A DNA stretch of 64,000 bases from Burkholderia ubonensis subsp. mesacidophila (lineage in GTDB: Bacteria > Pseudomonadota > Gammaproteobacteria > Burkholderiales > Burkholderiaceae): positions 2,480,001 to 2,544,000 of the forward strand of contig NZ_CP020738.1 in the NCBI RefSeq assembly GCF_002097715.1, read 5' to 3'. The notes under the pieces are model-generated. The model did no database searches and was not told where the DNA came from. It saw only the letters and a program-made list of their open reading frames with translations. Shown here one piece after another: positions 4,107-39,104 of this stretch. How positions within the stretch are numbered: position 1 is the first letter of the stretch; each line of letters starts with the position of its first letter. Position numbers and translations under genes: made by a program.

Positions 4107-4361
4107 ATGCAAACCCTTGGACCGAAACGGTCGTCACGCTGGCCGGGCGTCGTGCTCTGCGGCGTTTTCTCGGCGCTGGTCGCGGCAGCCGCGATCGCGC
4201 CGCCGAACGCATACGCGGACGGCAAGCCCCCACCGCACGGTCACGGCCAGCTTCCGTCCGGCAAGGAAGCCTGGGGCAAGCCGGCCTATCCGCCATCGGG
4301 CCCGCATCCGGGCGACACCGTCAACAAGACGACGACGAAAAATCGGACTTCGAACCAATAA
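4107..4361 (+). CDS. Small secreted hypothetical protein
   Basis: 84 aa. A cleavable Sec signal peptide is evident: basic start, hydrophobic core VVLCGVFSALVAAAAIA, and a likely cleavage site after AYA near residue 37. The mature part is about 46 residues, rich in Pro, Gly, His, Lys and Thr, with no globular pattern, so it is probably a short disordered periplasmic or extracellular peptide. A ribosome-binding-like GGGAGGAC sits just upstream of the ATG. It lies 73 bp before the large secreted deacetylase on the same strand, so co-expression is likely. I do not recognise a family. Confidence 0.7.
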   Translation: MQTLGPKRSSRWPGVVLCGVFSALVAAAAIAPPNAYADGKPPPHGHGQLPSGKEAWGKPAYPPSGPHPGDTVNKTTTKNRTSNQ

Positions 4362-30901: not shown

Positions 30902-31564
30902 ATGCGCGTACTGCTCGTCGAAGACGATCCGCTGATCGGCAGCGGGCTCGAACAGGGTCTGAAGCAGGAAGGCTTCGCGGTCGACTGGGTGAAGGACGGC
31001 GACGCCGCGTCGCTCGCGCTGCGCACGACCGGCTACGGCCTGCTGCTGCTCGATCTCGGCCTGCCCAACCGCGACGGCCTGTCAGTGCTCGCCGCGCTGC
31101 GCCGCCGCGACGAGAACCTGCCGGCGATCGTCATCACCGCGCGCGACGGCCTGTCCGACCGCATCGCCGGACTCGACAGCGGCGCTGACGATTACCTCGT
31201 GAAGCCGTTCGCGCTCGAGGAACTGCTCGCGCGCATCCGCGCGGTCAACCGGCGCCACGCGGGACGCGCGCAGACCACGCTCGCGGTCGGTCCGCTGCGG
31301 CTCGACCCCGTCAAGCACGAGGTCTGGCTCGACGACGCCGAAGTGACGCTGTCGCCGAAGGAATTCGTGCTGCTGCACGAGCTGATGCGCGAGCCGGGCG
31401 CGGTGATTTCCCGCGAGCAGTTCGAGGAGCGCCTGTACAGCTGGGGCGAGGAAATCGAAAGCAACGCGGTGCAGGTGCATATCCACAACTTGCGCAAGAA
31501 GCTCGGCCACGACATGATCCGCACGGTGCGCGGCGTCGGCTACCGGATCGGTGACGCGGCATGA
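30902..31564 (+). CDS. qseB: OmpR-family response regulator, QseB-like
   Basis: 220 aa. Receiver domain: acidic pair in LLVEDDPLIG, phosphoacceptor Asp in LLLLDLGLPNRDG, Lys in YLVKPF. A winged-helix output domain follows, with TLSPKEFVLLHELM and the recognition region VQVHIHNLRKKLG, VRGVGYRIG. Start at 30902 chosen by the receiver beginning MRVLLVED. It overlaps the kinase gene by 4 nt (ATGA), so translation is coupled. With the divergent ygiW gene it reproduces the known ygiW/qseBC context. Confidence 0.93.
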   Translation: MRVLLVEDDPLIGSGLEQGLKQEGFAVDWVKDGDAASLALRTTGYGLLLLDLGLPNRDGLSVLAALRRRDENLPAIVITARDGLSDRIAGLDSGADDYLVKPFALEELLARIRAVNRRHAGRAQTTLAVGPLRLDPVKHEVWLDDAEVTLSPKEFVLLHELMREPGAVISREQFEERLYSWGEEIESNAVQVHIHNLRKKLGHDMIRTVRGVGYRIGDAA

Positions 31565-32931
31565 CGAGCGTACGGCGCGCGCTCATGCGCTGGCGCGGCG
31601 CATCGCTGCGGCGCCGCCTGCTGTTCTGGCTGCTGCCCGCCGCCTGCGTGATCGGCCTGCTCGCGAGCGCGGGCACCTACTGGGGCGCGCTGCGCGAACT
31701 CGACGACCTGCTCGACGACCAGATGCGCAGCATGACGAAACAGATCGTCGTCGGCCCGAACGGCGAGCTGTCGTTCAGCCGCGACGCCGGCGGCAAGCAC
31801 CACTTCAAGGTCGACGATCCCGACGCGGTGCTGCTGCAGGTGTGGCGCAACGGCGCGCTCGTCTATTCGACCGACCGCGATCTGACGCTGCCGCCGCCGG
31901 CGCAGACCGGCATCGCGAGCGTCGACGTCGGCGGCCAGTCGTGGCGCACCTACGTGACCGAACGCGGCGGCACGACGATACGTGTCGCGCAGGCGCGCCA
32001 CGCGCGCTGGGAAGCGATCGCAGGGATCGCCGTCCACCTGCTGTGGCCGGTGCTGTCGATGCTGCCCGTGCTGGCGATCGGGCTGTGGTTCGGCATCGGC
32101 GCGGGGCTGCGGCCGCTGCGCCTGATCGCCGCCGGGCTCAAGCGCCGCAATGCGAACAATCTCGAACCGGTGGACGTCGCGTCCATGCCGAACGAGGTGC
32201 GTCCGCTCGCCGAAGCGATCAACGACCTGCTCGCCCGCCTCGACCGCTCGTTCACGCTGCAGCGGCATTTCATCGCCGACGCCGCGCACGAGCTGCGCAC
32301 GCCGATCATGGGCCTGTCGATCCAGTCGCAGCTGCTGCGTCGCGCGACGACGCCCGACGAACGCGAGCGCATCCTCGCGCAGATCCACGCCGGCACGACG
32401 CGGCTCGGCCATCTCGCCGAACAGCTGCTCACGCTCGCCCGCCTCGAACCGGACGCGCAGACGGCGGCTTTCGCGCCGATCGATCTCGCCGCGCTGTGCC
32501 GCGCGGTGGTCGCGGATCGCGCGCGCGTCGCCGACGCGCATCGCGTCGACCTCGGTGTGATCGGCACGTCGCCCGTCACGGTCGCCGGCAACGCCGACAC
32601 GTTGCGCGTGCTGCTGAACAATCTCGTCGACAACGCGATCCGCTACGCGGGCGATGGCGCCTGCATCGACGTCAGCGCGCGCGTCGACGGCGCGACGCCC
32701 GTGCTCGAAGTGTCGGACGACGGCCCCGGCATTCCGGAAGCGGAACGGGCGGACGTGTGGGAGCGGTTCTATCGCGGCGCCGGCGCGCAGACGGCGACGT
32801 CGTCGGGCAGCGGGCTCGGCCTGTCGATCGTCAAGCGGATCGCCGAGCAGCATCGCGCGACCGTCACGCTCGGCACGAGCTCGGGCGGACGCGGACTCAC
32901 CGTCACGGTGCGCTTCAATGCACCAGTGTGA
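31561..32931 (+). CDS. qseC: Sensor histidine kinase, QseC-like
   Basis: 456 aa. Two transmembrane segments (about 20-42 and 155-180) bracket a periplasmic sensor region; a HAMP linker follows. H-box FIADAAHELRTPIMG with H243, N-box LLNNLVDNAIRYAG, G1 VSDDGPGIP and G2 GSGLGLSIVKRI are intact, so the kinase should be active. QseC-type kinases phosphorylate QseB; the ligand in Burkholderia is not shown by sequence. Overlaps qseB start-to-stop. The first of the eight dispersed repeats begins 20 bp past its stop. Confidence 0.93.
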   Translation: MTSVRRALMRWRGASLRRRLLFWLLPAACVIGLLASAGTYWGALRELDDLLDDQMRSMTKQIVVGPNGELSFSRDAGGKHHFKVDDPDAVLLQVWRNGALVYSTDRDLTLPPPAQTGIASVDVGGQSWRTYVTERGGTTIRVAQARHARWEAIAGIAVHLLWPVLSMLPVLAIGLWFGIGAGLRPLRLIAAGLKRRNANNLEPVDVASMPNEVRPLAEAINDLLARLDRSFTLQRHFIADAAHELRTPIMGLSIQSQLLRRATTPDERERILAQIHAGTTRLGHLAEQLLTLARLEPDAQTAAFAPIDLAALCRAVVADRARVADAHRVDLGVIGTSPVTVAGNADTLRVLLNNLVDNAIRYAGDGACIDVSARVDGATPVLEVSDDGPGIPEAERADVWERFYRGAGAQTATSSGSGLGLSIVKRIAEQHRATVTLGTSSGGRGLTVTVRFNAPV

Positions 32932-32950
32932 AGCCGTCGCGATGCCCGGC

Positions 32951-32993
32951 TTGTCCACAGATTTTGTTGGCAAGCTTGTGGATATCCTGCGCA
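32951..32993 (+). repeat. DnaA-box-like repeat, unit 1
   Basis: Core begins TTGTCCACAGATTTTGTTGG and ends TTGTGGATATCCTGCGCA. Two inverted 9-mers, TTGTCCACA and (complement) ATATCCACA, each differ from the DnaA box TTATCCACA by one base. A weaker conserved tail with CTAA and TTGATCCGA extends to ~33018. Confidence 0.8.
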
Positions 32994-33155
32994 CCATCGC
33001 GCTAAGCCCTTGATCCGACGGGCTTTGGCATGCGTGATGCAGGGCGGGCGCGCGGAAGCGGCGCGCCGCGTGCGATTGTTTCGCGGCTCGCACCGCGCCC
33101 GTTGCGCGCGCCACCTGCCGATGCTGCGTCCGGCGCAAGCGCCGCATCGCGCCAT

Positions 33156-33198
33156 TTACCCACAGATTTTGTTGGCAAGCTTGTGGATATCCTGCGCA
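33156..33198 (+). repeat. DnaA-box-like repeat, unit 2
   Basis: Same core, with TTACCCACA as the first 9-mer and TGTGGATATCCTGCGCA as the second half. Tail ATAACCCCTTGATC to ~33220. It begins 205 bp after unit 1. Confidence 0.8.
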
Positions 33199-33409
33199 AG
33201 CCCGCGATAACCCCTTGATCGCGCAGCGAAACACGCTGCGCGTCACGGATGCGGCACCGCGGCGCGCCGGCAACTTGACGCCCGCGCGTGCGACACCTCA
33301 AGATCGAGCTTGCCGCATGAGGCTAGGCGGGCGCCGGCTTCGTACGACACGCACAGCGACACCCTGTCCACGCCGCACAACGACCGTCAACGTGTCCGAG
33401 GGGAAGGCC

Positions 33410-33613
33410 ATGCATCATTTCAGCGCGCTGAAGTTGCTCGCCGTACTCGTCGTCTTCGCCGTCTGCTTCTATCCGTATGTCCGCATCGTCCGCCGAACCG
33501 GCCACTCGGGCTGGTGGGTGCTGACGATGATCGTGCCGATCCTGAACTTCATCATGCTCTGGGTGTTCGCGTTCGTGCGCTGGCCGGCCGTCGACGATCA
33601 GCAAAGCAGCTGA
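33410..33613 (+). CDS. Small two-helix membrane protein
   Basis: 67 aa from ATG 33410, chosen because GGGGAAGG lies just upstream and the product then begins with its first helix. Two hydrophobic helices (LKLLAVLVVFAVCFYPY and WWVLTMIVPILNFIMLWVFAF) are separated by a short basic turn (RIVRRTGHSG). The pattern resembles small DUF805-like or phospholipase-D N-terminal-like membrane proteins. It sits inside the repeat cluster, between units 2 and 3. Function unknown. Confidence 0.7.
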   Translation: MHHFSALKLLAVLVVFAVCFYPYVRIVRRTGHSGWWVLTMIVPILNFIMLWVFAFVRWPAVDDQQSS

Positions 33614-33708
33614 GCGTCGCCGTATCGCGAAGCGGCCGGCCGGTTCGCGACGCTTCGCACACCCTCGCCGTCCGTCGACACGCGATCGCACGATCGCGGC
33701 GGCCCGAC

Positions 33709-33751
33709 TTTTCCCCAGATTTTGTTGGCAACGATGTGGATAGCCTGCGCA
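33709..33751 (+). repeat. DnaA-box-like repeat, unit 3
   Basis: The most diverged copy: TTTTCCCCAG at the left box and ATGTGGATAGCCTGCGCA on the right. The tail GATCAAGCACTTGATCAGA is followed by TTTCTTGCGCTGTCGCGAATGA, shared with unit 4. Confidence 0.75.
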
Positions 33752-33865
33752 TACCGCGATCAAGCACTTGATCAGAAAGGCCTTTCTTGCGCTGTCGCGA
33801 ATGAGGCACCGGCACGTCGATCCACGCGACGCACGCCATCGCGGGCAGGCGCAGGCCCGGCGCTT

Positions 33866-33908
33866 TTGTCCACAGATTTTGTTGGCAAGCATGTGGATAG
33901 CCTGCGCA
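33866..33908 (+). repeat. DnaA-box-like repeat, unit 4
   Basis: Canonical left box TTGTCCACA; right side CATGTGGATAGCCTGCGCA. The tail CTTGATCCGAAAGACTTTCC matches unit 3 closely, so the repeat unit extends to about 110 bp. Confidence 0.8.
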
Positions 33909-33985
33909 TACCCCGATCAACCGCTTGATCCGAAAGACTTTCCTCGCGCGGGCGCGAATGAGGCACGCATGCGCAAGCCGGCCGC

Positions 33986-34028
33986 TTGTCCACAGATTTT
34001 GTTGGCAAGCGTGTGGATATCCTGAGCA
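33986..34028 (+). repeat. DnaA-box-like repeat, unit 5
   Basis: TTGTCCACA left box, GTGTGGATATCCTGAGCA right side. It begins 120 bp after unit 4 and ends 84 bp from the penA stop. Confidence 0.8.
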
Positions 34029-34112
34029 TGCGTGACGTAAGTGGTTGATCTCACAACGCTTCGACACGCGCGCCACGCATGTGGCACGGACTTGCGCCGC
34101 GTCTTGCTTCGC

Positions 34113-35006
34113 TCAGCCGAGCGCCGCGATCGCGATGCGCGTCGCCGCCACGATCACGCCGTCGTCCCTCTTCGCATCGGCGTGCGCCTGCGTGTAGTAC
34201 ACGGTCAGCACGATCGGCCCGCGCGCGGGCGGCCAAAGTACGCCGATGTCGTTGAGCGTCCCGTAGTCGCCGGTGCCGGTCTTGTCGCCGACCTGCCATC
34301 CCGGCGGCACGCCCGCGCGAATCCGCTTGTCGCCCGTCTTGTTGCCGCGCAGCCATTGCGCGAACTGCGCACGCTGGGGCGCCGGCAACGCATCGCCGAG
34401 CGCCAGTGCGCGCAGGCTCGCCGCCATCGCGGCGGGCGTCGTCGTATCGCGCGCGTCGCCCGGCAGCGCGGTATTCAATTCGAGTTCCCAACGGTCGAGC
34501 CGGAACGTATCGTCGCCGATCGAGCGTGCGAACGCGGTCACCGCCGCCGGCCCGCCGAGCAGTTTCATCAGCAGGTTCGCGGCCCCATTGTCGCTGTACT
34601 GGGCCGTCGCCTCGCACAGCTCGCCGACCGTCATGCTCGTGCCGACGTGTTTCTTCGTCACCGGCGACCACCCCACGGGATCAGTCTGCCGAACCGTCAC
34701 GCGCTGCGCGAGCAACGCCGGACGCGCGACGGACTGCGCAAGCACCGCCGCGATCAGCATGGCCTTGAACGTGCTGCAGAACGGGAACCGCTCGCCGGCG
34801 CGATGCTCCACGCGCCGGCCGGTCGCAGTGTCGAGCGCGCACACGCCGAGGCGGCCACCCACGGCGCGTTCGAGTTCCGCGAGCGATGTCGCCGAACCCG
34901 CGGAGGCGGCATTCGCCTGCGGCGACGCGCCCGCCTTCAGGGTCAGCGCGAGCGGCGCCGTCAAGGCGGCAAGCAGCAGGGTTCGGCGTTGCGATGAGTA
35001 GGTCAT
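34113..35006 (-). CDS. penA: Class A beta-lactamase, PenA type
   Basis: 297 aa from ATG 35006. The signal peptide carries a twin-arginine-like motif (SSQRRTLLLAAL), so Tat export is plausible. Catalytic motifs are all present: STFK with the active-site Ser preceded by Cys (FPFCSTFK, Cys69-type), YSDN, omega-loop WELELN with the general base Glu, and DKTGTGDYG. Such PenA/PenB enzymes hydrolyse penicillins and some cephalosporins in the periplasm. It is divergent from a LysR/AmpR-type gene, 114 bp apart, its expected regulator. Confidence 0.95.
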   Translation of the reverse strand: MTYSSQRRTLLLAALTAPLALTLKAGASPQANAASAGSATSLAELERAVGGRLGVCALDTATGRRVEHRAGERFPFCSTFKAMLIAAVLAQSVARPALLAQRVTVRQTDPVGWSPVTKKHVGTSMTVGELCEATAQYSDNGAANLLMKLLGGPAAVTAFARSIGDDTFRLDRWELELNTALPGDARDTTTPAAMAASLRALALGDALPAPQRAQFAQWLRGNKTGDKRIRAGVPPGWQVGDKTGTGDYGTLNDIGVLWPPARGPIVLTVYYTQAHADAKRDDGVIVAATRIAIAALG

Positions 35007-35074
35007 TCCGTTTATCTCGTGGTGGATAGAATCAAGTTGCCGGCCCGGCGAGACGAAATATCGCGACTTTACGG

Positions 35075-35085
35075 TTGTCTGACAA
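35075..35085. promoter_or_regulatory. Palindrome in the penA-penR intergenic region
   Basis: TTGTCTGACAA is a 5+1+5 inverted repeat between the divergent beta-lactamase and regulator genes, inside the AT-rich part. It fits a LysR-type operator region (T-N11-A family) and may be part of the PenR site. Confidence 0.45.
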
Positions 35086-35120
35086 GCAACGATAATTGAG
35101 TGCTGACAAAAGAATTTCTT

Positions 35121-36011
35121 ATGACAAAGCTCCGCCCTCACCTTCCGCTGAATGCGTTGCGCGCCTTCGAATCGTCGGCGCGCCACCTGAACTTCACGCG
35201 CGCCGGCCTTGAGCTGAGCGTGACCCAGGCCGCGGTCAGCCAGCAAGTCCGCGCGCTCGAGGAGCGGCTCGGCTGCACGCTGTTCACGCGCCTGCCGCGC
35301 GGGCTAGGTCTCACCGACGAGGGTCGCGCGCTGCTGCCCGTGCTGAGCGATGCGTTCAGCCGCATCGAGACGGTGCTCAAGCAGTTCGAGGGCGGGCGCT
35401 TCCGCGAGGTGTTGTCGCTCGGGGTTGTCGGCACGTTTGCCCTAGGCTGGCTAATGCCGCGACTAAAGCGCTTCGGCGACGTCCATCCGTTCGTCGAACT
35501 GCGGCTGCGGACCAACAACAACGTGGTCGACCTCGCGGCCGAGGGGCTCGATTTCGCGATCCGCTTCGGCGTCGGCAACTGGCCGGGGACGCGCAACGAA
35601 CGGCTGCTCGACGCGCCGCTCACCGCGCTGTGCACGCCGGAGATCGCCACGCGCCTCGCGCAGCCCGGCGATCTCGCGAACGAAACGCAGCTGCGCTCGT
35701 ACCGCACCGACGAATGGCTCGGCTGGTTTGCGGCCGCGCAGCTCGAACCGTGGCCGGTCAACGGCCCCGTGTTCGACTCGTCGCGGCTGATGGTCGAGGC
35801 AGCCATGCAGGGCGCGGGCGTCGCGCTCGCGCCGGCCTGCATGTTCACGCACGAGCTGCAGCTCGGCCAGCTCGCGCGGCCGTTCGACATCGACGTGCAG
35901 GCGGGCGGCTACTGGCTCACATCGCTGAAATCGAAGCCGCTCACGCCGGCGATGACGCTGTTTCGCGACTGGATCGCGAGCGAGGCGGCCGGCGCAGCGC
36001 CCGTCGAGTGA
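35121..36011 (+). CDS. penR: LysR-type regulator of the beta-lactamase (PenR/AmpR-like)
   Basis: 296 aa from ATG 35121 (MTKLRPHLPLNALRAFESSARHL, the usual AmpR/PenR beginning); a GTG seven codons upstream is the alternative. The helix-turn-helix reads LNFTRAGLELSVTQAAVSQQVRALEERLGCTLF, followed by the effector domain with LPRGLGLTDEG. By family knowledge it senses muropeptides released during beta-lactam exposure and switches the divergent beta-lactamase gene. Repeat unit 6 begins 27 bp past its stop. Confidence 0.92.
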   Translation: MTKLRPHLPLNALRAFESSARHLNFTRAGLELSVTQAAVSQQVRALEERLGCTLFTRLPRGLGLTDEGRALLPVLSDAFSRIETVLKQFEGGRFREVLSLGVVGTFALGWLMPRLKRFGDVHPFVELRLRTNNNVVDLAAEGLDFAIRFGVGNWPGTRNERLLDAPLTALCTPEIATRLAQPGDLANETQLRSYRTDEWLGWFAAAQLEPWPVNGPVFDSSRLMVEAAMQGAGVALAPACMFTHELQLGQLARPFDIDVQAGGYWLTSLKSKPLTPAMTLFRDWIASEAAGAAPVE

Positions 36012-36037
36012 TCGCCCGATGGCGCGTCCGCCCCCAT

Positions 36038-36080
36038 TTGTCCACAGTTTGTGTTGGCAAGGATGTGGATATCCTGGGTA
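36038..36080 (+). repeat. DnaA-box-like repeat, unit 6
   Basis: TTGTCCACAG left box, with altered middle (TTTGTGTTGG), then GATGTGGATATCCTGGGTA. Tail AACCCATTGATCCC. The array resumes here after the penA-penR pair. Confidence 0.78.
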
Positions 36081-36213
36081 TCTGGCCCTTAACCCATTGA
36101 TCCCACACGACTTCTCATTGCGATGCACGGATCGGGCAGGCCGCCCGGGCAGCGCCGCGGCGAATGTGCCGCGGCCCCGCATTGCCAACCTTGGCGACGC
36201 AATGGCGCGCAGC

Positions 36214-36257
36214 TTGTCCACAGATTTTGTTGGCAAGCCTGTGGATATCCTGCTGAC
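36214..36257 (+). repeat. DnaA-box-like repeat, unit 7
   Basis: TTGTCCACAGATTTTGTTGG is exactly the unit 1 start; right side CCTGTGGATATCCTGCTG. Tail GTAAGCATTTGACGCA is slightly diverged. Confidence 0.8.
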
Positions 36258-36367
36258 GCGGCGCGTAAGCATTTGACGCAACAGGGAATTCGATCTGGCG
36301 CCACCCAGGTGGCAAGCACGAGGCACGCGTGATGCGATCGCCGCGCGCCGCACCGGTGGCGCGTACG

Positions 36368-36410
36368 TTCTCCACAGATTTTGTTGGCAAGCTTGTGGAT
36401 ATCCTGCGCA
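36368..36410 (+). repeat. DnaA-box-like repeat, unit 8
   Basis: TTCTCCACAGATTTTGTTGG and CTTGTGGATATCCTGCGCA; tail CTAACTCATTGAGCGCA to ~36434. It begins 154 bp after unit 7 and is the last copy seen. Confidence 0.8.
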
Positions 36411-36525
36411 TGCGCCCCCTAACTCATTGAGCGCACGGCATTTTGTGTCGCGCATGCACGATTGGGCAGCGCGGTTGGAACCCGCATGGAAGCGCGGCGG
36501 CGCGAGCGCGCCGCCGCGTAGGGGC

Positions 36526-36777
36526 TCAGCGCTTGTCGAGCGAGCCGCGCAGTTCACGCGCCTTGTCGCGCAGCGCCTCGTAGCCGGAGCGCGCATGCTC
36601 GGGCAGGTCCGGGTCGCCGATCAGCGCGCCCAGGGTTTCGATCAGGCTGAAGAGAATGCCTTTCGCCGCGCCGACGGCAATGCTCTGCGATTCGATCGAC
36701 TCGTGCAGGTGGTTGACCGCCGCTTCGAGATGCTCGAGCTTCTGCTCGCCGTCGTCGGGCCGCTTGTCGGTCGTCAT
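36526..36777 (-). CDS. Small helical hypothetical protein
   Basis: 83 aa from ATG 36777 (MTTDKRPDDGEQKLEHLEAAV). The frame is open 10 codons further up without a better start. The product is acidic-basic and helical (LEAAVNHLHESIESQSIAVGAAKGILFSLIETLGALIG), soluble, with no motif I recognise. It stands 108 bp upstream of the repeat cluster and downstream of the glucosidase gene on the same strand. Confidence 0.65.
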   Translation of the reverse strand: MTTDKRPDDGEQKLEHLEAAVNHLHESIESQSIAVGAAKGILFSLIETLGALIGDPDLPEHARSGYEALRDKARELRGSLDKR

Positions 36778-36884
36778 CGTGTGCCTCCGGGAATGTTCGA
36801 GGGTCATGTCGCGATTCTATGCCGCTGCGCGCGAACGTGGCGCGACTTCGCGCAACGTTCGTGCGGCCGCAGCCGGCCGCGCCC

Positions 36885-39104
36885 CTACAGCACCGCGACG
36901 ACCTTCACGCGCCCCGGCTCCGCCGCCGCGACCACCTGGCCGTCGACGCGCCGGAACGTCAGCGACACGCTGTCGTCGCCGACCCGCAGATCGTCGATCC
37001 GCAGCCAGTCGACGCCTTCCGGCAGTGCCGGCCGCTCGACCCGCACTTCGTGACGCGCGGCGTCGACGCTCACGCCGAGGCATGCCTGCAGCATCATGAA
37101 CGGCGCGCCGGCCGCCCACGCCTGCGGCAGGCACGCGACCGGATACGCGGTCGGCGGCTCGCCGCGCCGGCGCGGGAACCCGCAGAACAGTTCCGGTAGC
37201 CGCATCTCGAAGCTCACCGCCGCCTCGAACAGCGAGCGCAGCAGGTTCAGCACGGCGGCCTTGTCGCCGTAGCGTGCGAGCCCGCGCGCGGCGAGCGCAT
37301 TGTCGTGCGGCCACACCGAGCCGTTGTGATACGCCATCGGATTGAAGCGCGGCTGGCCGGCCGCCAGCGTGCGCACGCCCCAGCCGGTCTGGAACAGCGT
37401 CGAGCCGAGCGCGTCCGCGACCGCCGCGCCGCGCGCCGGCTCCGGCAGGCCGAACGCGAGCAGATGCCCGGCGTTCGACGCGAGCACGCGGCACAGCTCG
37501 CCGTGGCCGTCGAGCGCGATCCCGTAGAAATTCGCGTCGGGCATCCAGAACAGCGCCTCGACCTGCTCGCGCAGCATCTTCGCGCGCAGCGCATAGCGCG
37601 TCGCGTCAGCCGCATGGCCGCGCCGCTGCGAGCACGCCGACATCGCCTCGAACGCCGCGCACGCATACGCCTGCACTTCGACGAGCGCGATCGGCCCATC
37701 GGGGAAACGCCCGTCCGCGTGGAACACCGAATCGTGGCTGTCCTTCCAGCCCTGGTTCGCGAGCCCGCGCTCCGACGTGCGCTGGTAATCGAGCAGTCCG
37801 TACGGATTGCGGTCGCACTTGTCGCTCACCCACTGGATCGCGCGTTCGAGCGCGGGCCACAGTTCGTCGATCAGCGCGTCGTCGCCGGTGTGCTCGACAT
37901 ACGCGCCCGCCAGCACGACGAACAGCGGCGTCGTGTCGACGCCGCCGTAGTACAGCGCGAACGGCACCTCGCCCGTCGCCGCCATCTCGCTCTTGCGGAA
38001 CTCGTGCATGATCTTGCCCGGCTCGGCGTCGCGGAACGCCGACGTCTCGCGCGCCTGATTCGCAGCCAGAAAACGCAGCACGCCGCGCGCGAGCGACGGC
38101 TGCAGCCACAGCATCTGCAGCGACGTGATCACCGCGTCGCGGCCGAACGGCGTCGAGAACCACGGAATCCCGGCATACGGATACGGGCCGGTGTCGAGCT
38201 GCGTCGTCAGCAGCCCGAGATCCGCGAGCGAACGGTCGAGCCACGCGTTGAACAGCGGGTTGCCGGTGCGCACGCGGGCCATCGTCGCGCGCCGCGCGCG
38301 CATCGCGCGGTGCACCGCGACGAGCGCGGTGCGCAACGGGGCGCGGCCGCACCCCGGCGCCTCGCCGCGCGCCGCGCCGACCGTCGCCTCGACGGTCAGG
38401 TAGATCGACACGCACGCCTGCGCGGCGATCGTCAGCCGGTAATCGGCGCGGTCGACCGACAGCGCGTCGGGCGCCGGCGAGAAATAGAGCGTCACCGCGC
38501 GCTCGACGCGATCGAGCCCGTCGTAGCGCAACCGCACCGCGCCCGCGTCGATGCGCGGCGGCGCGATCGTGCCGCGCCGCGTGCGGCGCGTGCCGCGTAC
38601 CTCGAACATGTCCTTGAAATCGGCTGCGAACGACAGCGACAGCGGCACTTCGGCCTCGCTCGCGCCGTAGTTCGTCAACGTCAGCGCTTCGTACAGCACG
38701 TTGTTCGCGAGCACGCGCATCCGCTCGATATGGATCACGCCTTCGGGCGTCTCGTGGCCGCCGAGCGGCGGCAACGGCCGGTTCGTCAGGTGCGCGGTGA
38801 ACGACGCGTTGTCGGCGCTGGTCGCGCCCGACAGCAGCGACGGCGCGCGGCCCCCGAAGGTCAGCCGCCATTTCGACAGCACGCGCATGTCGTCGACGAA
38901 CAGGCCGTCGTCGTGCCCGCCGATGTCGCCGAGCGCGTCGCTGACCACGAACGCGTCGCCGGCCTTCAGCACGTACTGGTTGTTGCGCGCGGCCGCCTGC
39001 GGGTCGGCCTCGGGCGCGATGAATGCGGGGCCCGACGCCTGGGTCGGGGGCACAGGCGCGACCTGGGGGCCGCGCGTCGTCGTCTCGTCGGCGTGATTCG
39101 GCAT
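36885..39104 (-). CDS. Glycogen-debranching-type amylo-alpha-1,6-glucosidase
   Basis: 739 aa from ATG 39104, with AGGAG 6 nt upstream. The N-terminal third is a beta-sandwich (N-terminal glycogen-debranching domain: NNQYVLKAGDAFVVSDALGDI, GLFVDDMRVLSKWRL). The C-terminal part is an (alpha/alpha)6 glucosidase: YPYAGIPWFSTPFGRDAVIT, KIMHEFRKSEMA, NQGWKDSHDSVFH with acidic catalytic candidates, NPMAYHNGSVWPHDNA. It probably hydrolyses alpha-1,6 or related glucan links in the cytoplasm. A terminator separates it from the autotransporter gene upstream. Confidence 0.93.
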   Translation of the reverse strand: MPNHADETTTRGPQVAPVPPTQASGPAFIAPEADPQAAARNNQYVLKAGDAFVVSDALGDIGGHDDGLFVDDMRVLSKWRLTFGGRAPSLLSGATSADNASFTAHLTNRPLPPLGGHETPEGVIHIERMRVLANNVLYEALTLTNYGASEAEVPLSLSFAADFKDMFEVRGTRRTRRGTIAPPRIDAGAVRLRYDGLDRVERAVTLYFSPAPDALSVDRADYRLTIAAQACVSIYLTVEATVGAARGEAPGCGRAPLRTALVAVHRAMRARRATMARVRTGNPLFNAWLDRSLADLGLLTTQLDTGPYPYAGIPWFSTPFGRDAVITSLQMLWLQPSLARGVLRFLAANQARETSAFRDAEPGKIMHEFRKSEMAATGEVPFALYYGGVDTTPLFVVLAGAYVEHTGDDALIDELWPALERAIQWVSDKCDRNPYGLLDYQRTSERGLANQGWKDSHDSVFHADGRFPDGPIALVEVQAYACAAFEAMSACSQRRGHAADATRYALRAKMLREQVEALFWMPDANFYGIALDGHGELCRVLASNAGHLLAFGLPEPARGAAVADALGSTLFQTGWGVRTLAAGQPRFNPMAYHNGSVWPHDNALAARGLARYGDKAAVLNLLRSLFEAAVSFEMRLPELFCGFPRRRGEPPTAYPVACLPQAWAAGAPFMMLQACLGVSVDAARHEVRVERPALPEGVDWLRIDDLRVGDDSVSLTFRRVDGQVVAAAEPGRVKVVAVL

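Follow-up and report, generated by a model that had tools for sequence, protein, structure and literature searches.

Organization of the array

The 64,000-nucleotide stretch of Burkholderia ubonensis subsp. mesacidophila DNA analyzed here, which we call the window, contains an intergenic array of eight repeat units, each composed of three DnaA-box-like 9-mers followed by a motif resembling a binding site for integration host factor (IHF). Repeat-family analysis and alignment place all eight units on the plus strand, with starts at 32951, 33156, 33709, 33866, 33986, 36038, 36214 and 36368. This agrees with an earlier sequence-only reading, as does the location of the units outside all genes that we take as real; longer mechanical open reading frames (ORFs) do overlap them. 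The array occupies 2.513-2.516 Mb of contig C2 (3.31 Mb), which carries genes for a secondary-chromosome RepA (Rep3) and ParB at 94-96 kb. From its sequence, and by analogy with the DnaA-reactivating sequences (DARS) of Escherichia coli, we think it rather probable that this is an array of eight DARS-like modules that handle DnaA.

All eight units follow one plan, with box I on the plus strand at position p, box II on the minus strand at p+14 and box III on the minus strand at p+26. The sequence-only reading had correctly noted two inverted near-matches to the DnaA box in each repeat, but had missed a third, poorer box-like 9-mer between them, TGTTGGCAA, which reads TTGCCAACA on the minus strand. 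On sequence alone, boxes I and III differ from the DnaA box at one or two positions and box II differs at three. Over the 3.5 kb of the array, a single mismatch is found in 15 boxes, two mismatches in one box and three in eight. Downstream of box III lie the run CCTGCGCAT, a little-conserved stretch, and the motif YAAnnnnTTGAT(C) at +53 to +65. A T-rich spot is often present at +74 to +76, and IHF sites usually have an A/T tract roughly this far from the motif. Except for its last base, the motif matches the IHF consensus given in PMC5742627 (cited, like the other papers here, from excerpts). The tail with TTGATC that the sequence-only reading had described as a weaker part of the repeat is this IHF-like motif.

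Unit 1 spans 32951-33026, with box I at 32951-32959 (+), box II at 32965-32973 (-), box III at 32977-32985 (-), the IHF-like motif at 33003-33015 and the T-rich spot at 33024-33026. In the same order and orientation, unit 2 (33156-33231) has its boxes at 33156-33164, 33170-33178 (-) and 33182-33190 (-) and its motif at 33208-33220, and unit 3 (33709-33784) has boxes at 33709-33717, 33723-33731 (-) and 33735-33743 (-) and a motif at 33761-33773. Box I of unit 3 (TTTTCCCCA) is poor, with two mismatches to the DnaA box. Unit 4 (33866-33941) follows with boxes at 33866-33874, 33880-33888 (-) and 33892-33900 (-) and a motif at 33918-33930; the corresponding elements of unit 5 (33986-34061) lie at 33986-33994, 34000-34008 (-), 34012-34020 (-) and 34038-34050, and those of unit 6 (36038-36113) at 36038-36046, 36052-36060 (-), 36064-36072 (-) and 36090-36102. 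The IHF-like motifs of the last two units have two mismatches each: unit 7 (36214-36289) has boxes at 36214-36222, 36228-36236 (-) and 36240-36248 (-) and the motif at 36266-36278, and unit 8 (36368-36443) has boxes at 36368-36376, 36382-36390 (-) and 36394-36402 (-) and the motif at 36420-36432.

Three flanking genes, all outside the element, have Pfam assignments: a sensor histidine kinase (31561-32931, +; HisKA and HATPase_c; qseC in the earlier annotation), a beta-lactamase (34113-35009, -; Beta-lactamase2; penA) and a LysR-type regulator (35100-36011, +; penR). Two small ORFs, one scanned as 33407-33613 and one at 36526-36807 (-), have no Pfam match over the cut-off. The latter is present in 29/29 relatives, as is the glycogen-debranching-like gene that it adjoins. 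Relatives with nine units have, beside the histidine kinase gene, an outermost unit with TGTGGACAA that our genome seems to lack (32951-33784 of the window).

Conservation of the units

The core pattern CCACAGATTTTGTTGGCAAGnnTGTGGATA, with up to three mismatches, matches eight times in the 7.84 Mb genome, always in the array, and its reversed control does not match at all. Scattered copies, which would have spoken against a dedicated locus, were looked for and not seen. A dispersed intergenic repeat or miniature inverted-repeat transposable element was rejected on the same evidence, with 8/8 core matches at one locus; looser patterns add three units, on chromosome 1. The array is found in all 65 genus genomes searched (our own among them); when up to three mismatches are allowed, each genome has between 1 and 10 copies, all on a single strand. 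Under the strict pattern, the 21 genomes with positions listed (our own and G001 to G020) each have it on a single contig and at a single locus.

We scanned 30 genus genomes (that of the window and 29 relatives) for opposed box pairs with gaps of 12-59, counting both strands. There are 462 matches at 26, the I-III distance, and 46 at 14, the I-II distance; gaps of 15-25 and 27-36 yield none, 13 yields two, and each gap from 37 to 59 yields one to eight. Exact TCCACA-N(5-34)-TGTGGA pairs number 13 in our own genome, of which seven have the I-III spacer of 17 and three the I-II spacer of 5, the others having 18, 28 and 28. Six of these ten I-III or I-II pairs are array units, so the ten represent four independent loci.

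A larger set of 232 genus units was gathered by boxes I and III at a gap of 26, so it provides no independent test of the I-III distance; the IHF-like motif played no part in the choice. The middle of most of these units is TGTTGGCAA. In diverged species it is TGTGGTCAA, TGTGCGCAA, TGTCGACAA or TGTTCACAA, with the DnaA-box-like ends retained. The AA and TGA of the IHF-like motif are present in 232/232 units and TTGA in 217/232, and 201/232 have at least two T in the three positions of the T-rich spot.

The middle box was also approached with a pattern that left the middle free while fixing the two outer boxes (I and III) and the IHF motif, in 32 genomes from nine other genera that had been picked for earlier matches (136 rows). 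Among 82 less redundant rows, the minus-strand register +15 averages 2.89 mismatches to TTATCCACA and the next-best register 4.66; the middle is within two mismatches in 17 rows and within one in six. A few units in these genera thus have a true DnaA box in the middle. The other 55 rows (one is common to both sets) average 3.42 mismatches, with 4.53 for the next-best register. By these sequences the other genera clearly have a single DnaA-like middle register, that of DARS box II, in which most of the boxes are poor.

Orthologous units were compared in 13 genomes with nine units each. Identity is 0.979 for box I, 1.000 for box II, 0.998 for box III, 0.986 for the IHF motif and 0.961 for the T-rich spot, versus 0.575 in the upstream flank and 0.784 in the downstream flank. 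Mutation of the 9-mers at the rate of the surrounding sequence, which the sequence-only reading had named as evidence against its proposal, is thus not seen. Identity of 0.89-0.92 in the box-adjacent spacers and in stretches 36-44 and 65-73 indicates that constraint or slow change extends past the motifs. Array positions retain their own variants across species in the 11 loci compared, and the units therefore look old rather than recently copied.

These data bear on the possibility of a mobile or selfish repeat that merely resembles DnaA boxes. The units are indeed repeated, and copies in other genera are scattered over several contigs. However, under the strict pattern the genus has a single contig and locus in every genome with positions listed and one strand in all 65, individual positions hold their own variants, and conservation peaks in the boxes and the IHF motif. 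We regard a mobile origin of this kind as highly improbable.

The 232 genus units were also used to evaluate a structured RNA. The outer pair of the putative hairpin is kept in 65/232 units, the third pair in 166/232 and the other seven in 209-232, as the conserved boxes alone would give. An Rfam search of 32500-37000 in the window returned four matches up to an E-value of 5, none at the gathering score. We reject an RNA hairpin, and the preference of the sequence-only reading for a role at the DNA level is supported.

Comparison with E. coli DARS

Scanning E. coli MG1655 locates the DARS1 core upstream of uvrB at 1108 (+), 1122 (-) and 1134 (-) of the stretch examined (L040), and the DARS2 core upstream of mutH at 4136 (+), 4150 (-) and 4162 (-) (L041). 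Box order, the + - - orientation and the +14/+12 steps are identical to those of an array unit. The III-II pairs that we find are the DARS1 and DARS2 double boxes tabulated in PMC11317965, and PMC5742627 describes the two DARS as equal in box spacing, with box I opposed to boxes II and III. Both the DARS and the array are noncoding and distant from oriC (in E. coli, DARS2 is at 64.0 min and DARS1 at 17.5 min, with oriC at 84.6 min; PMC4585315). In addition, DARS2 requires IHF, and the array units carry an IHF-like motif. A BLAST search of E. coli genomes with unit 1 and its surroundings produced no match, so the likeness is one of layout rather than overall sequence. There are also differences in arrangement. 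The array comprises eight like-oriented units on a secondary chromosome whereas each E. coli DARS contains a single core, its IHF-like motif is fixed at +53, unlike the DARS2 site, and its flanks are not uvrB or mutH.

Part of the layout recalls the double DnaA box. E. coli DnaA favours box pairs 2-3 bp apart, one member of which may be poor (PMC11317965), and boxes III and II of the array likewise share a strand, lie 3 bp from each other and include one poor box. To this the array adds a third, opposed box and the IHF-like motif, all as a repeated unit. In the E. coli DARS, head-to-head contact of DnaA on the opposed boxes I and II drives ADP release (PMC8682772). By analogy, DnaA would occupy boxes III and II of each unit as a same-strand pair, and another DnaA would sit on box I, head to head with that on box II. 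The binding place of IHF would be 17 bp beyond box III, where bending of the DNA would drive the complex or gate it. As a result, DnaA would release ADP and the level of ATP-DnaA would rise.

Over residues 129-465, the DnaA of this genome, read from the beginning of C1, shares 62% identity with that of E. coli, and Hda is present. Our DnaA retains GGRDHTT as well as D269, R285 and L290, residues that PMC5742627 links to DARS or oligomer activity. The sequences directly show the array, its box layout, the fixed position of the IHF-like motif, the conservation and the chromosomal location. The units are likely to bind DnaA, given their boxes, and from the motif we infer that they bind IHF as well. 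With less support, we also infer that they recharge DnaA rather than hold it and have a role in timing.

Several observations weigh against the assignment. The strong box of the E. coli DARS is II, with weaker boxes I and III, whereas box II is the poor box of the array (TTGCCAACA, three mismatches), and in the middle-free search none of the 55 rows of the second set has a middle box within two mismatches. The IHF-like motif is imperfect. Compared with (A/T)ATCAAnnnnTT(A/G), the 232 units comprise 13 perfect ones, 186 with a single mismatch and 33 with two, and compared with TAAnnnnTTGATW, 0, 1, 2 and 3 mismatches occur in 8, 107, 107 and 10 units, respectively. The bases at +53 of E. coli DARS1 do not fit the motif, and near-consensus IHF sites near DARS2 lie elsewhere than +53. 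Our DnaA has His at the position of E. coli R227, a residue described as highly conserved (PMC5742627). Finally, single 14/12 triplets are found next to other genes as well, and promoters may therefore be a further use of the layout.

The main rival to DARS-like modules is a DnaA sink, in which dense boxes merely hold DnaA and the IHF-like motif or the layout only strengthens binding. Many DnaA boxes are packed into this one locus, and titration has recently been supported in E. coli (PMC12371093). Yet a sink has no need of fixed 14/12 spacing, an opposed box I or a constant IHF-like motif at +53, all of which are kept, and the array sits roughly in mid-replichore, whereas E. coli boxes cluster near the origin (PMC12371093). 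A sink is thus unlikely in our estimation, though it deserves to be taken seriously.

The sequence-only reading had suggested an analogy with datA, which with IHF drives hydrolysis of DnaA-bound ATP. Like the array, datA is noncoding and combines DnaA boxes with an IHF site, and the intergenic boxes and IHF-like motif of the array would suit such a function. However, the essential datA boxes all point in one direction and two of them enclose the IHF site (PMC5742627), while box I of the array is opposed and its IHF-like motif lies outside the boxes. This is the layout of the DARS core and not of datA. The analogy does not stand as proposed, and a datA-like activity has only a small chance of being correct.

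Chromosomal position and possible replication control

RepA2 (Rep3) is encoded at C2:94897-96258, about 0.89 Mb from the array, and in 15/15 genomes examined the array and the RepA2 gene share a contig. Expressed as a fraction of the distance between repA2 and the point opposite it on chromosome 2, the mean position of the array in these genomes, which is orthologous and so not independent among them, is 0.51 (standard deviation 0.09, range 0.33-0.69). The distance from RepA2 argues against the array being a replication origin itself, as does GC content, which in 100-bp windows over the units never falls below 0.55; a 100-bp window of 0.45 GC between the beta-lactamase and LysR genes contains no units. 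No 14/12 triplet is present in the first and last 6 kb of chromosome 1, where just one DnaA box with up to one mismatch occurs. The first contig begins inside dnaA (1-1026), so these ends cover the oriC side only in part. Iterons were rejected as well, the published chromosome 2 iteron consensus (PMC4948915) being unlike the unit by eye.

The crtS site of Vibrio cholerae offers a different comparison. It is likewise a short site on one chromosome that is thought to inform initiation of the other. However, crtS belongs to chromosome 1 and works by way of RctB (PMC6090056, PMC4948915), while the array is on chromosome 2 and has DnaA boxes. A crtS-type trigger would be a chromosome 1 site bound by the chromosome 2 initiator, and is rejected on the location of the array in the 15 genomes.

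With the array about midway between repA2 and the point opposite, its dose would double part-way through chromosome 2 replication. We tentatively suggest, as an idea more doubtful than the modules themselves, that the array is a DARS-type superlocus for feedback from chromosome 2 to chromosome 1 through a rise in ATP-DnaA. A fork passing mid-chromosome 2 would double the dose of eight reactivating units, raise ATP-DnaA and license chromosome 1 to begin another round, opposite in direction to Vibrio crtS. The chromosome 2 origin, with a 14/12 core of its own near repA2, would perhaps be licensed too.

Such a link would address an existing question. In Burkholderia cenocepacia, data were taken to suggest cell-cycle-phased initiation of chromosome 2, and the nature of the link was left open (Du et al. 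2016; PMC4948915). A common regulator of both chromosomes was one possibility considered, and the origin regions were described as without obvious shared control in the excerpted text of that study. The array, located off both origins on chromosome 2, is a concrete candidate for the link, since its DnaA-handling units would double in dose when mid chromosome 2 is replicated. This brings the question within reach of a test. The broader proposal of the sequence-only reading, that this is likely a replication-control locus, is supported by the analysis.

How far DARS extend among bacteria is described variously. In the excerpts consulted, the DARS2 core is specific to gamma-proteobacteria related to E. 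coli (PMC4245941), a review places DARS in beta- or gamma-proteobacteria (PMC5742627), and a DARS-like sequence is reported on V. cholerae chromosome 1 (PMC6090056). Among the open-licence papers listed by the searches, we found no description of DARS, or of such an array, in Burkholderia; PMC10218098 mentions the term "DnaA-reactivating sequence" and Burkholderia, but apart from one another in its excerpted text. Nor did the listed papers include a secondary-chromosome array of eight units, each with its own IHF-like motif. If the assignment is correct, a DARS that is present throughout a genus, in many copies and on a secondary chromosome, would bring DnaA recharging to bacteria whose genomes are split.

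Related cores elsewhere

Looser units with the IHF motif are present in 200/299 family genomes and 10/25 genera (own genus 41/41, outside it 159/258), with no match for the reversed control. The three further units that looser patterns detect in our genome stand in a row on chromosome 1 (C1:2234338, 2234472 and 2234604), with IHF-like tails (C1:2234338-2234666), between PALP-family and penicillin-binding-protein genes. This setting is common to G009, from the same genus, and G076, from another; in a third genus (G083) units lie near the penicillin-binding-protein side only. The three-unit module may be the ancestral locus. Near repA2, two overlapping, opposed 14/12 cores occupy C2:90563-90608, 4 kb from the gene, and a core with no mismatches is found 3-6.4 kb from repA2 in 15/15 genomes, contigs being taken as circular.

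Two single cores on chromosome 1, at C1:3349527 and C1:2806878, have a canonical box II (5528-5561 of L178 and 5879-5912 of L179 in the fetched stretches). One is beside a Mg-chelatase (ComM-like) gene and the other is just upstream of a gyrB/parE-type gene. Neither uvrB nor mutH is among the flanks identified beside the single chromosome 1 cores, which are the Mg-chelatase (ComM-like) and gyrB/parE-type genes and an ABC transporter (ABC-F-like) gene. These cores are possible DARS counterparts or DnaA-regulated promoters.

The latter function raises the question of whether the array, too, provides DnaA-dependent transcription control of adjoining genes. Its units are intergenic, box pairs are the means by which DnaA controls promoters in E. 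coli (PMC11317965), and one single core of the same genome stands just upstream of the gyrB/parE-type gene. Against this, eight like-oriented units cover 3.5 kb and genes of both strands. The array is also kept in 6/29 relatives (L062, L063, L065, L069, L072 and L075) without a tblastn beta-lactamase match above 40% identity, and is therefore not tied to penA. Control of the neighbouring genes is accordingly an improbable account of the array as a whole.

Across the class, a triplet with a loose IHF part is found in 39/229 genomes, our own included, many with canonical boxes, and except in our own genome it is nearly always single. The flanks that could be named beside single 14/12 triplets in distant members include release-factor, ksgA-like, methyltransferase, proS-like and lon genes, and one triplet adjoins an sbcC-like gene, called by eye from the ORF list (L177). 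The possibility that these triplets represent oriC was rejected on nine opened loci, from nine of the 39 matching genomes, where the nameable flanks were neither dnaA nor rpmH; some of the flanking frames were scanned, several of them without an assigned family. Within the family, one genome from another genus (G094) contains a mini-array of three units spaced 145-163 bp apart (L162:7755-8063), beside a pagP-like gene.

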